Assembly: GCA_025055115.1 (NCBI GenBank)
Contig: JANWYJ010000055.1
Span: forward strand, 1 to 64,000
Direction: 5' to 3'
From: Gemmata sp.
Lineage (GTDB): Bacteria; Planctomycetota; Planctomycetia; Gemmatales; Gemmataceae
DNA length: 64,000 nucleotides
Shown here in pieces: positions 116 to 39,606 of this stretch. The position numbers and the translations under genes are program-made. How positions within the stretch are numbered: the stretch's first letter is position 1; each line of letters begins with the position of its first letter. The notes beneath the pieces were generated by a model, which worked only from the letters and a program-made list of their open reading frames with translations, was not told the DNA's origin and made no database searches.

Positions 116-210
116 CGGGAGTGTATCGGAATCGAACCGACAGGGAGCGTTGTTCACACCCCCCACGGGTTTTGAAGACCCGGGCCAACACCAGTTGTGC
201 AAACACTCCC
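116..210 (-). tRNA. selC: tRNA-Sec (anticodon TCA)
   Basis: On the minus strand this 95-nt stretch folds as a selenocysteine tRNA, the tRNA that SelA charges with selenocysteine and SelB brings to in-frame UGA codons. The acceptor stem is a perfect 8 bp (GGGAGTGT with ACACTCCC), the length typical of bacterial tRNA-Sec rather than the usual 7. The discriminator base is G, as in E. coli selC. The anticodon arm is CGGGT-CTTCAAA-ACCCG with anticodon TCA. A long variable arm separates it from a T arm containing GGTTCGATTCC. CCA is not encoded. A possible -10 box (TACAAT) is at 221–226, but the matching -35 is poor. No selA, selB, selD or SECIS-bearing selenoprotein is visible in the window. Confidence 0.93.
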
Positions 211-3401: not shown

Positions 3402-4559
3402 ATGACTCTCGCCAACCGCCTGGCTGACATTCGCGATAAAGTTTATGCCGGTGTTCGACTCACCTTCGACGATGGACTTTTCCTCGAACACCATGCTGAT
3501 TTGTTCACTTTGGGGGAACTGGCGAACTTTGTTCGGGAAAAGAAAAACGGCAACATCACCTACTACAACGTCAACCAACACCTCAACCCCACGAATGTGT
3601 GCGTTTACCGCTGTGCGTTCTGTTCCTTCCGTGCCGACTTAAAATCACCGCGCGGTTATGTGATGACCGACGAAGAGATTCTGCAACGCGCTCGGGAAGC
3701 TAGCGAAGCAGGGGCCACCGAACTGCACATTGTGGGTGGGTTGCACCATCTGCTACCGTATGAATGGTATCTGAACATCATCCGCATGATCCACAACGCC
3801 TTCCCACAGCTGCATTTGAAAGCGTGGACAGCCGTGGAATGGGATTGGTTTGAGCGGATCACCAAACGCCCCACCCAGGAACTGCTCGCGGAGATGAAAG
3901 CAGCCGGGTTGGGTTCGCTCCCCGGCGGTGGCGCAGAGATCTTCCATCCTGAAGTTCGCCGCAAAATCTGCGATTACAAAGCCGATGCCGAACAATGGCT
4001 GCGCGTGCATCGCGAATGGCACCGCATGGGTGGCCGCTCGAATGCGACCATGCTCTACGGGCACATTGAAAAGCCCGAACACCGCATCGACCACCTGTTG
4101 CGGCTGCGGGCCTTGCAAGACGAAACCGGCGGCTTCCAAACCTTCATTCCGCTGGCCTTTCATCCCTCCAACAACCCGTTGGGCCAAAATATCCCCAAAC
4201 CCAGCGGGCTGATGGACCTGAAAATGATCGCAATTTCCCGGCTGATGCTCGACAACTTCCCGCACATCAAAGCTTATTGGCAGATGCTAACGGTGAAAGT
4301 GGCCCAAGTGGCGCAAAGCTTCGGCGCCGACGACATCGACGGTACAGTGGTTCACGAAAAGATTTATCACGCCGCTGGCAGTGATTCGCCGCAACAACTC
4401 ACTGTGGCCGAACTGCGCCGCTTGATCGAAGAAGCCGGTCGCATCCCCGTCGAACGCGATACTCTTTACAACCACATCGTCCGTGAACCGGCTGACGTCA
4501 CCAAGTGGACCATTCGCCAGCCCCTGGACACACAGCCACTGCTGGAGGTCGCCAGTTGA
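3402..4559 (+). CDS. mqnE: Aminodeoxyfutalosine synthase (radical SAM)
   Basis: A 385-residue radical SAM enzyme of the futalosine route to menaquinone, joining SAM-derived adenosyl with the MqnA product to give aminodeoxyfutalosine. The [4Fe-4S] motif C67-x3-C71-x2-C74 (CVYRCAFCSF) is present. MqnE-specific stretches follow: ELHIVGGLHH, SLPGGGAEIF, NATMLYGHIE, FIPLAFHP, MLDNFPHIKAYW and FGADDIDGTVV. These separate it from MqnC, the second radical SAM enzyme of the pathway. The ATG at 3402 follows CAGGAAC. The other mqn genes are not in the window. The gene's 3' end is duplicated downstream. Confidence 0.95.
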   Translation: MTLANRLADIRDKVYAGVRLTFDDGLFLEHHADLFTLGELANFVREKKNGNITYYNVNQHLNPTNVCVYRCAFCSFRADLKSPRGYVMTDEEILQRAREASEAGATELHIVGGLHHLLPYEWYLNIIRMIHNAFPQLHLKAWTAVEWDWFERITKRPTQELLAEMKAAGLGSLPGGGAEIFHPEVRRKICDYKADAEQWLRVHREWHRMGGRSNATMLYGHIEKPEHRIDHLLRLRALQDETGGFQTFIPLAFHPSNNPLGQNIPKPSGLMDLKMIAISRLMLDNFPHIKAYWQMLTVKVAQVAQSFGADDIDGTVVHEKIYHAAGSDSPQQLTVAELRRLIEEAGRIPVERDTLYNHIVREPADVTKWTIRQPLDTQPLLEVAS

Positions 4560-4636: not shown

Positions 4637-5091
4637 GGTTCTGATTGAGCGGTTCGGACATGGCGCAAGTTGCTGCAGCGATCAGTGCAGCGATCAGAAC
4701 GTCGTCTGGGTGACTTTCAGGCAGGGAGTCAGTCGAGGCGAACAAGGGCAGTGCATGGGCCAGCGGCCGAAAGGTCAATCCGAGTCACCCAGCGGCCTGG
4801 CGTGAGTCGATGTGGGCTATTGCAGTGCACCTGCTGTCTGCCGCCGTGGCAGTGACACACCATTCGGCCCGGTCATCATGGCCATCGTGCGCACAACCTT
4901 GATGCGTCGCGCCAAGGTCTGTCTTGTGGCGGCTTGTTTATCAGGGATGAATATTCAGCAGGGATGAATTTAATATTCAGCAGTGATGAATTTCGAGTGG
5001 GATTACAGATGCATGGGCGATAGAGGTTGTTCTCGGCGTGACGCGTTGAACAACTTCTATCGACGATGCGAGCAGTGTGTTGTGTTTAAGG
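4637..5091. other. Gene-free stretch between mqnE and tRNA-Ala
   Basis: No credible coding sequence. It holds short direct repeats (GCAGCGATCA near 4674–4696; a TATTCAGCAGKGATGAATTT pair near 4949–4990). I recognise no RNA family in it. Confidence 0.55.
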
Positions 5092-5164
<73 letters not shown>

Positions 5165-26661: not shown

Positions 26662-26802
26662 GATTGGTCCCTACCGCGACGGCTCCGGCGATGATTGCGG
26701 TACTCCCATCGCCTGGCCTTTTGGTTCCGAACCCTCTTCGATATGCTACTCTCTAACTGAGAAAGTGGCTGTTGGGCTACAAAAAAGACCAAGGACAACG
26801 CA

Positions 26803-37366: not shown

Positions 37367-37867
37367 TTAGCGTGAACTGGCACGCCATTCGACCGTGGCC
37401 GATTGCCCCGGGGCTTCCTCCACTTCCACTCGCAGCACCGTGGGGGTGAAATTCTCGTTGGTTTGTAGCGACGCCCATAACCGCCCGGCGATGTAGCGGG
37501 CAATCAGTTCAGCGGTGGTGTTCTCGATGGGCAACAGAACGCAATCGCCGCGTGGGAAGAGCCATTCCCGATCTTCATAGGTCACCCGCACCCGATTCGC
37601 TTCTTCCATCACCTGAATGACGGGATTCGACAGTGGCAACAGCATATGATGGTCGAGTTCGTCGGTGATTTCTTTGGTGCGTTTTTTGAGGGCAATAAAA
37701 TCGAAGACGTAATAATCCTCCTGGAGGGGGCCTTCGACTTCCACCGCAGCGCGGTAGTTGTGGCCGTGCAGGCGTTCGCATTGATGGCCGCGGTAACTGA
37801 TGAAGTGCCCGCAGCAGAAGACGAGGTGATCTTTGGTGACGCGAACTTTGAAATGCTCAGCGGGCAT
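37367..37867 (-). CDS. 6-pyruvoyl-tetrahydropterin synthase-like protein
   Basis: A 166-residue member of the PTPS/QueD family, the last gene of the H4MPT operon. Zinc ligands are seen in CCGHFISY and HGHNY, with the catalytic-type Cys in GHQCERLHGHNY, and an HDHHML-like motif (DELDHHML). QueD makes 7-deazaguanine precursors, but this position in a methanopterin operon suggests a pterin-tailoring step. PTPS-like genes are known in C1 islands of methylotrophs. It begins 3 nt after the preceding stop. Confidence 0.85.
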   Translation of the reverse strand: MPAEHFKVRVTKDHLVFCCGHFISYRGHQCERLHGHNYRAAVEVEGPLQEDYYVFDFIALKKRTKEITDELDHHMLLPLSNPVIQVMEEANRVRVTYEDREWLFPRGDCVLLPIENTTAELIARYIAGRLWASLQTNENFTPTVLRVEVEEAPGQSATVEWRASSR

Positions 37868-37870
37868 GAT

Positions 37871-38749
37871 TCACAGCCAATCGGGAACGTCCCAGTGAAA
37901 CGGTGTCGTGGGTGTTACCTTATTTTCCCGCAAGGCGACAAACAGGCAAGCCGTGATCAGGTCGGCGGTGGTACCGGGGTTGAGTGTCGAACCGGCGCTG
38001 CGTAACGAGCGGTCGAGGGCCACGGCGGCGGCACGGCCTGAGGGCGTGGCGATGCCGCCCCGCTGCAGCACCGCGGCTGCTTGGCGTTGAACCGCTTCCG
38101 CCACGGCTGGCCCGTTTTTGCGGGCAATCAGCGAATCGGGGAAACGGGCCAGCCAGTGCAATTGTGTGTCGATGATGGCGGCTTCCACCGTGCCGAATTT
38201 CGCCACAGCCTCCTGAAACGCGGGTACGCCAAAGTCGAAAACATCGGCATAACCGGTGGCGTACTGGCGGGCGATGGCGTCGCGATCAGCGGCCTGGTGC
38301 ATCGCTTCGAGCAAGCTTACGGTGGGTTCTTCGTGAACATCGTGTTCGCTGGAGCGTCCTAACCCGCCGGGGTTGGCTAGGCGGATGGCCCGGTAGGTCC
38401 ACAGGGCGTCGTCGCGGGTCAGTTTTTGCAGAATAGTCGTCACTTCGTTCCGGAGCGACGTGTCGCCACGGCAGCGGAGCAGCGGGACTAACAGTAGGAT
38501 GATCCCCAGGTTGGTATTTTGCCCCACCATCGCCTGGGTTTCGCGCACGGCCGACCAAATCATTTCCCCCAGGCTTGCGTGCTGTGTTTGGCAGAAAGCG
38601 TGATGAATCGCCGCAGCACTCAGTAGGAAATCGGTCAGATGGGTCGTGGGGAAATCCGCGTAGCGGTGAACGTTCCCGATTTTGCGGGCCACCGCTTCCC
38701 AAATACATGCGACCTGGGCCAGCGTGGCGTTGGGCCAGGGCGAGTTCAT
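37871..38749 (-). CDS. CitG/MdcB-like protein of the H4MPT operon
   Basis: A 292-residue protein of the triphosphoribosyl-dephospho-CoA synthase family. The signature TNLGIILLLVPLL near 82 and the HASLGEMIW context are present. True CitG and MdcB transfer phosphoribosyl groups to dephospho-CoA. Homologues also occur beside mch and other H4MPT genes, where a ribosyl-phosphate transfer in cofactor assembly is the natural guess. ATG 38749 overlaps the upstream stop as ATGA, which implies translational coupling. Confidence 0.85.
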   Translation of the reverse strand: MNSPWPNATLAQVACIWEAVARKIGNVHRYADFPTTHLTDFLLSAAAIHHAFCQTQHASLGEMIWSAVRETQAMVGQNTNLGIILLLVPLLRCRGDTSLRNEVTTILQKLTRDDALWTYRAIRLANPGGLGRSSEHDVHEEPTVSLLEAMHQAADRDAIARQYATGYADVFDFGVPAFQEAVAKFGTVEAAIIDTQLHWLARFPDSLIARKNGPAVAEAVQRQAAAVLQRGGIATPSGRAAAVALDRSLRSAGSTLNPGTTADLITACLFVALRENKVTPTTPFHWDVPDWL

Positions 38750-39606
38750 CGGTCTGCCTCTTGCGCGAGAAACTGCACCACTTTTTGAGCAATATCGACG
38801 CCGCAGGTCGCAGCGAGGGCTTTCCATCCCGGGACGGCGTTCACTTCGATCACATACAACGCACCGGTGATATCCGGCAGCAGATCGACACCCGCGATCC
38901 AGCACCCCACAACCTCCGCAGCGCGGCGGGCCAGTTCTTGTTCCGCGGGCTGTAGTTGAACCGGCTCGACCAGACCACCCTGAGCCACGTTGGTGCGCCA
39001 ATCGTTGCGGGCGATCCGTCGCATGGCACCGACCACACGGCCGCCGATCACAAAGGCCCGGAGATCCCAACCGGGGTGGGCGACGAATTGCTGGAGGTAG
39101 ATCACTTGCCCAGTTTGTTCCAGGACACGAAACGTCCGCCAAGCGGTTTCCCCATCCGTCAGACGGCACATGCCGCGACCCTCCGCGCCAAAGAGGGGCT
39201 TGACAACAACATCGCGACCCAAATCGGCAAATGCGCTCATCGCCTCTTCGGACCGTTGGCATACGGCGGTGGGGGGAGTGGGTATCCCAGCGCGGGCCAG
39301 CCGCGCCGTCGTGAGATACTTATCGACACAAACCTCCACGGCGCGCGGCGGATTGACCACAAGCTGCCCGCGGGCTACCGCTTCGTGGAGCAAATCCATG
39401 CGGAACACGATTTGTTCGAGCGATCCGGCGGGCATGGTGCGGACCAAAATCGCATCGAAATTCATGAGAATGTCGCGTAGGGTGTGGACCCCGGTGGCCA
39501 ATTGGCGGAAGTCGAACGCCGTGGCCTCGTGCCGCAGGTCTTTGGCCGCCCGCAGAACATCTTGCACGTGCCAACCAGTGCCGCCCGAGAGAATCGCGAT
39601 CCGCAT
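38746..39606 (-). CDS. RimK/MptN-like ATP-grasp ligase
   Basis: A 286-residue ATP-grasp enzyme. It has the RimK-type core VVNPPRAVEVCVDKYLTTARL near 82, VVVKPLFGAEGRGM near 129 and IEVNAVPGWKAL near 255. In archaea MptN of this family adds glutamate to tetrahydromethanopterin to give tetrahydrosarcinapterin; a similar ligation is inferred here from the operon. Its ATG shares one base with the mch stop (TGATG), and its own stop overlaps the next start. Confidence 0.87.
   Translation of the reverse strand: MRIAILSGGTGWHVQDVLRAAKDLRHEATAFDFRQLATGVHTLRDILMNFDAILVRTMPAGSLEQIVFRMDLLHEAVARGQLVVNPPRAVEVCVDKYLTTARLARAGIPTPPTAVCQRSEEAMSAFADLGRDVVVKPLFGAEGRGMCRLTDGETAWRTFRVLEQTGQVIYLQQFVAHPGWDLRAFVIGGRVVGAMRRIARNDWRTNVAQGGLVEPVQLQPAEQELARRAAEVVGCWIAGVDLLPDITGALYVIEVNAVPGWKALAATCGVDIAQKVVQFLAQEADR

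Follow-up and report, generated by a model that had tools for sequence, protein, structure and literature searches.

Selenocysteine (Sec) insertion has already been described in planctomycetes: strains P1 and P2 from Porphyra carry full sets of Sec-insertion genes (PMC4807772, 2016), and P2, a Rhodopirellula-type planctomycete, encodes a Sec-containing FmdB within an fmdD-fmdB-fmdA-fmdC operon. The same study found Sec-insertion genes in Gemmata obscuriglobus and reported FmdB homologues of the glycine form in that species, S. paludicola and Z. formosa (PMC4807772). Among the prokaryotic selenoprotein families on record is FwdB, with a UHxP motif (review PMC13188914), and SelW-like and Prx-like UxxC families are also known (PMC2398784).

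Here we analyse a 64-kb stretch of DNA (C73:1-64000, hereafter the window) from a 4.93-Mb Gemmata-like assembly of 100 contigs that is 98% complete; judged by FwdB, its nearest named genomes include metagenome-assembled genomes (MAGs) labelled Gemmata and Gemmataceae. We conclude, with a probability of roughly 0.96, that the window carries near its start a functional bacterial selC and that the genome is equipped to decode UGA as Sec, with FwdB/FmdB, a SelL-related protein and a SelW-like protein as predicted clients. The finding is an ordinary one: a selC of the standard type, accompanied by the partners one would expect, in which all parts are of known kinds.

The tRNA-Sec gene and its structure

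ARAGORN calls a tRNA-Sec(TCA) at the start of the window, and Infernal matches the same minus-strand segment (117-210) to RF01852 over the full length of the model (1-91) with 72.9 bits (E 5e-13), compared with a curated cut-off of 47 bits. The RNA folds with an 8-bp acceptor stem and a 5-bp T stem (the 8+5 architecture), a D stem of 6 bp that carries one bulged base and closes a 4-nt loop, and a 5-bp anticodon stem presenting UCA. A preliminary description, made from the sequence, had recognized a tRNA-Sec by its 8-bp acceptor stem, TCA anticodon, G discriminator and long variable arm, and had proposed a covariance-model search as a check; the fold, the ARAGORN call and the RF01852 score all agree with that identification. 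Together, the covariance score, the 8+5 stems, the long D stem and variable arm, UCA and G73 place the gene in the bacterial tRNA-Sec family (Table 1). It is the only tRNA-Sec in the genome: other RF01852 matches are all weaker and, where read, proved to be tRNA-Ser, tRNA-Leu or tRNA-Tyr, including an apparent second match above the cut-off, which is a tRNA-Ser.

Table 1 Coordinates of the tRNA-Sec gene and its parts within the window
Feature	Position	Strand	Evidence
tRNA-Sec (selC), anticodon TCA, G73 at 116, CCA not encoded	116..210	-	ARAGORN, RF01852 and covariation
Acceptor stem 5' strand, 8 bp, GGGAGTGT, partner 117-124	203..210	-	Fold; alignment pairs 1-94 to 8-87
Variable arm, long (8-9 bp), with covariation in relatives	142..164	-	Covariation, helix 4

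We aligned 29 tRNA-Sec orthologues (27 distinct) from the same order and used 500 shuffles as a control. The structure is paired in 97.1% of cells, compared with 83.5% in the shuffles, and the covariation score is 0.366, compared with 0.099 in the shuffles and at most 0.067 when the partner strand is slid; sliding by 1-3 columns also lowers pairing to 42-59%. None of the 500 shuffles attained the observed values of pairing or covariation. Changes on both sides occur in 18 of the 33 pairs, and the variable arm (helix 4) is changed on both sides in eight of its nine pairs in some sequences; the UCA anticodon and G73 are invariant. Because pairing and covariation lie above both the shuffled and the slid controls, chance is excluded as a source of this structure.

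All 29 sequences have the bulged base, which lies in the D stem (5' strand) between the second and third pairs. The RF01852 consensus lacks it, a point against the reading as an ordinary selC. As a bulged D-stem base (position 13a) has been described in the tRNA-Sec of Clostridiales (PMC5330540), we regard the bulge as a trait of the lineage and of minor interest.

The fold also bears on whether the gene could be something else that resembles selC. A TCA anticodon by itself could serve general UGA suppression, and a serine or other tRNA might be misread as tRNA-Sec (of the allo-tRNA type), given that a long variable arm is also found in tRNA-Ser, which gives weak RF01852 matches. Against both ideas stand the 8+5 architecture, G73, the D stem of 6 bp and the complete sel machinery described below, and suppression conflicts further with the stop codons of the window, past which no convincing coding continuation was found; we consider this pair of readings highly improbable.

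The tRNA-Sec gene lies near the contig edge, as the window begins at a contig end. Its nearest neighbour is hemF (oxygen-dependent coproporphyrinogen oxidase), on the opposite strand. Relative to a close relative (G023), the tRNA-Sec and a few flanking bases align (95% over 123 columns), and the remaining intergenic DNA around it gave no alignment with that genome. The window also holds an ordinary tRNA-Ala (GGC) at 5090-5164 (-), which scores 69.4 bits with RF00005.

Sec machinery and predicted selenoproteins

The preliminary description had predicted SelA, SelB and SelD, along with genes containing UGA, outside the window; all were found, and each of the three sel genes scores far above its cut-off. 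selA (C14, 563.9 bits) scores above the cut-off of its NCBIfam equivalog; selB (C30) scores 401.7 bits over both pieces, with both domains within one 676-amino-acid frame; and selD (C22) scores 390 bits. The three sel genes of the bacterial Sec-decoding trait thus occur together in one genome, with these genes and selC all on different contigs. SelD itself was considered as a selenoprotein and rejected, as its active site (AGCAAK, for the motif AGCxxK) is the cysteine form.

Clients were sought family by family and in limited stretches of the genome, and three genes of known selenoprotein families have an in-frame UGA at a redox or metal-ligand position. The first appeared as a weak formate dehydrogenase match with one internal TGA and proved to be FwdB/FmdB, subunit B of formylmethanofuran dehydrogenase. 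Its only in-frame UGA (C70:76094) is codon 127 of 464, in the context DSHTSL-U-HGPTE, and U aligns with the conserved metal-ligand cysteine of a solved FwdB. Read through the UGA, the protein scores 490 bits with TIGR03129 (equivalog, cut-off 327.8). The D, A and C subunits adjoin it in an fmdDBAC operon; A and C score above cut-off, and D (66 bits) falls below the cut-off of its narrow model.

The second client, an AhpC/TSA protein related to SelL, has its UGA (C66:41861) at codon 40 of 192, in HLA-U-IPC. It scores 199.5 bits with NF040769 (cut-off 120), with the active-site motif UIPC. SelL itself has UxxU, and the protein here is UxxC. An AhpC/TSA gene with an inner TGA was present in four of the five genomes searched, and among 30 loci read, U occurs in 27, almost always followed by the hairpin sequence, TGC in two, and the motif is missing in one. 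The third, a SelW-like protein on the minus strand, has its UGA (C43:69910) at codon 11 of 78, in CSV-U (CxxU), and scores 68.6 bits with TIGR02174 (cut-off 34.2); the hairpin predicted after the UGA pairs GCUGUCA with UGGCAGC. The preliminary description had also suggested looking for SECIS-like hairpins after in-frame UGA codons, and one is predicted about 12-21 nt after the UGA in each of the three clients.

Other families gave less. No Sec formate dehydrogenase was found in this genome; Sec-FdhA occurs in two relatives (G071 and G057). The single AhpD-like (PF02627) gene of the genome has no UGA. A UGA candidate at position 3579 of locus L024 was rejected for its weak hairpin and the absence of a redox motif.

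The surroundings of the FwdB UGA are conserved. All 80 of the closest FwdB loci in the named genome set have UGA, an AGUU loop and a TTG leucine codon within that loop, a codon that makes up 22% of leucine codons in a set of window genes, and the hairpin is paired in 98% of cells, compared with 29-57% when slid. Peptide conservation accounts for part of this pattern. At one locus (L084), a Gly-to-Ser change in the hairpin is matched by a compensating base in the opposite arm.

In one relative, Sec- and Cys-type FwdB genes lie in tandem (L067 and L141), and in the Cys copy the codons are TGC and CTC, and the hairpin sequence is missing. By analogy, this arrangement suggests a possible selenium-dependent switch like that of Methanopyrus. 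Separately, five loci from MAGs labelled Acidobacteria (L174, L177, L187, L197 and L201) encode a Sec-FwdB that is 76-80% identical to planctomycete FwdB, through either gene transfer or mis-binning.

From the tRNA, the three sel genes, the predicted hairpins and the UGA codons in place of conserved redox or metal-ligand residues, we infer that UGA is recoded in FwdB, the SelL-related thioredoxin-fold protein and the SelW-like protein, the clients found so far in this Gemmataceae genome; their functions are predictions from family membership. SerRS would charge tRNA-Sec with serine, SelA would convert Ser-tRNA into Sec-tRNA using selenophosphate from SelD, and SelB would deliver Sec-tRNA to the ribosome wherever a UGA codon precedes a SECIS hairpin. 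The idea that the tRNA is decayed, or an orphan that outlived the Sec trait, could draw on its place at a contig edge and on the 64-kb window, where no selenoprotein or sel gene was seen; it is already refuted by intact, covarying stems, intact selA, selB and selD, and three UGA-containing clients.

UGA codons in the window and the trait across the order

Codon bias indicated 40 putative genes in the window; those with a TGA stop were examined, and none continues into a convincing coding extension. Only two extensions scored above zero, one of 4 codons (1.0) and one of 242 codons (4.9), and the longer one overlaps a likely gene on the opposite strand. A wider codon-bias scan, for UGA codons with coding sequence before and after them, returned frames at 26758 and 31685, which are very short and weak. 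The one strong junction that it left, 37873(-), was rejected as read-through: the continuation is a separate ATG-led gene, which we take to resemble 6-pyruvoyl-tetrahydropterin synthase, so these are two adjacent genes. The UGA-terminated frame abuts this gene within 37367-39262 (-). A codon-position scan against G023 yielded 45 candidates; these we interpreted as shadow frames lying opposite real genes, and they were rejected.

As the UGA-terminated genes of the window lack a convincing continuation, UGA is not generally read through. The scans of codon bias and UGA-terminated frames detected no selenoprotein or sel gene in the 64-kb window, with the qualification that short selenoproteins without codon bias could escape them; the users of the tRNA are scattered in the genome, which explains their absence here. 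The earlier statement that no selenoprotein was in view therefore holds for the window and fails for the genome, which has three clients. The preliminary description proved correct both in what it identified and in what it predicted.

Across the order, tRNA-Sec is present in 81 of 102 genomes and UGA-form FwdB in 46; 38 genomes have both, 43 only the tRNA and 8 only Sec-FwdB, most of these 8 being fragmented assemblies without a tRNA-Sec match. The two are not significantly coupled over the order (Fisher p 0.62), because other clients exist. When the SelL-related protein and FdhA are added, a client read at codon level, or UGA-form FwdB, accounts for 48 of the 81 tRNA-Sec genomes; counting SelL-related matches that contain TGA but were left unread raises this to 61. 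About 20 relatives with tRNA-Sec have none of the Sec genes sought (FwdB, SelL-related and FdhA); these relatives and the 8 genomes with Sec-FwdB alone are points against the main reading. Genomes with the tRNA and no confirmed client among those sought include G004, G011, G022, G031, G051, G095 and G098; as some of the client-less assemblies are complete, other selenoproteins are likely in these relatives.

Comparison with known Sec systems

Because this lineage has the full equipment to decode UGA as Sec in selected genes, automatic annotation will truncate or split at least three genes of this genome. The part most worth following is the spread of Sec-FwdB in Planctomycetota, which is wider than the single described strain, and the conserved hairpin in its coding region offers a ready set for studying recognition by SelB. 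More speculatively, and at somewhat less than even odds, Sec-FwdB across Gemmataceae and other Planctomycetota might act as a genuine formyl-methanofuran dehydrogenase that depends on Mo/W, in contrast to the formyltransferase/hydrolase complex found in proteobacterial methylotrophs; C1 oxidation in these bacteria would then be controlled by the supply of selenium, and the tandem Cys copies of some genomes would serve as a low-selenium backup.

The tRNA shares with bacterial tRNA-Sec (RF01852) the 8+5 fold, the 6-bp D stem with its 4-nt loop, UCA, the long variable arm and G73. Sel genes are dispersed here, as in strain P1, in which the full Sec-insertion set is likewise not co-localized, and the order of the fmd operon is that of P2 (PMC4807772). 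In contrast to the glycine FmdB forms reported in that study, the UGA form occurs here in a Gemmata-like genome and in many relatives of the order. The two smaller clients match established families, NF040769 for the SelL-related UxxC protein and TIGR02174/PF10262 for the SelW-type CxxU protein. With the archaeal Sec-FwdB of Methanopyrus kandleri, the protein described here shares Sec, predicted in this case, at the metal-ligand position and the UHxP motif (PMC13188914); unlike that system, it belongs to a bacterial host, and its hairpin lies inside the coding sequence directly after the UGA, as in bacteria.
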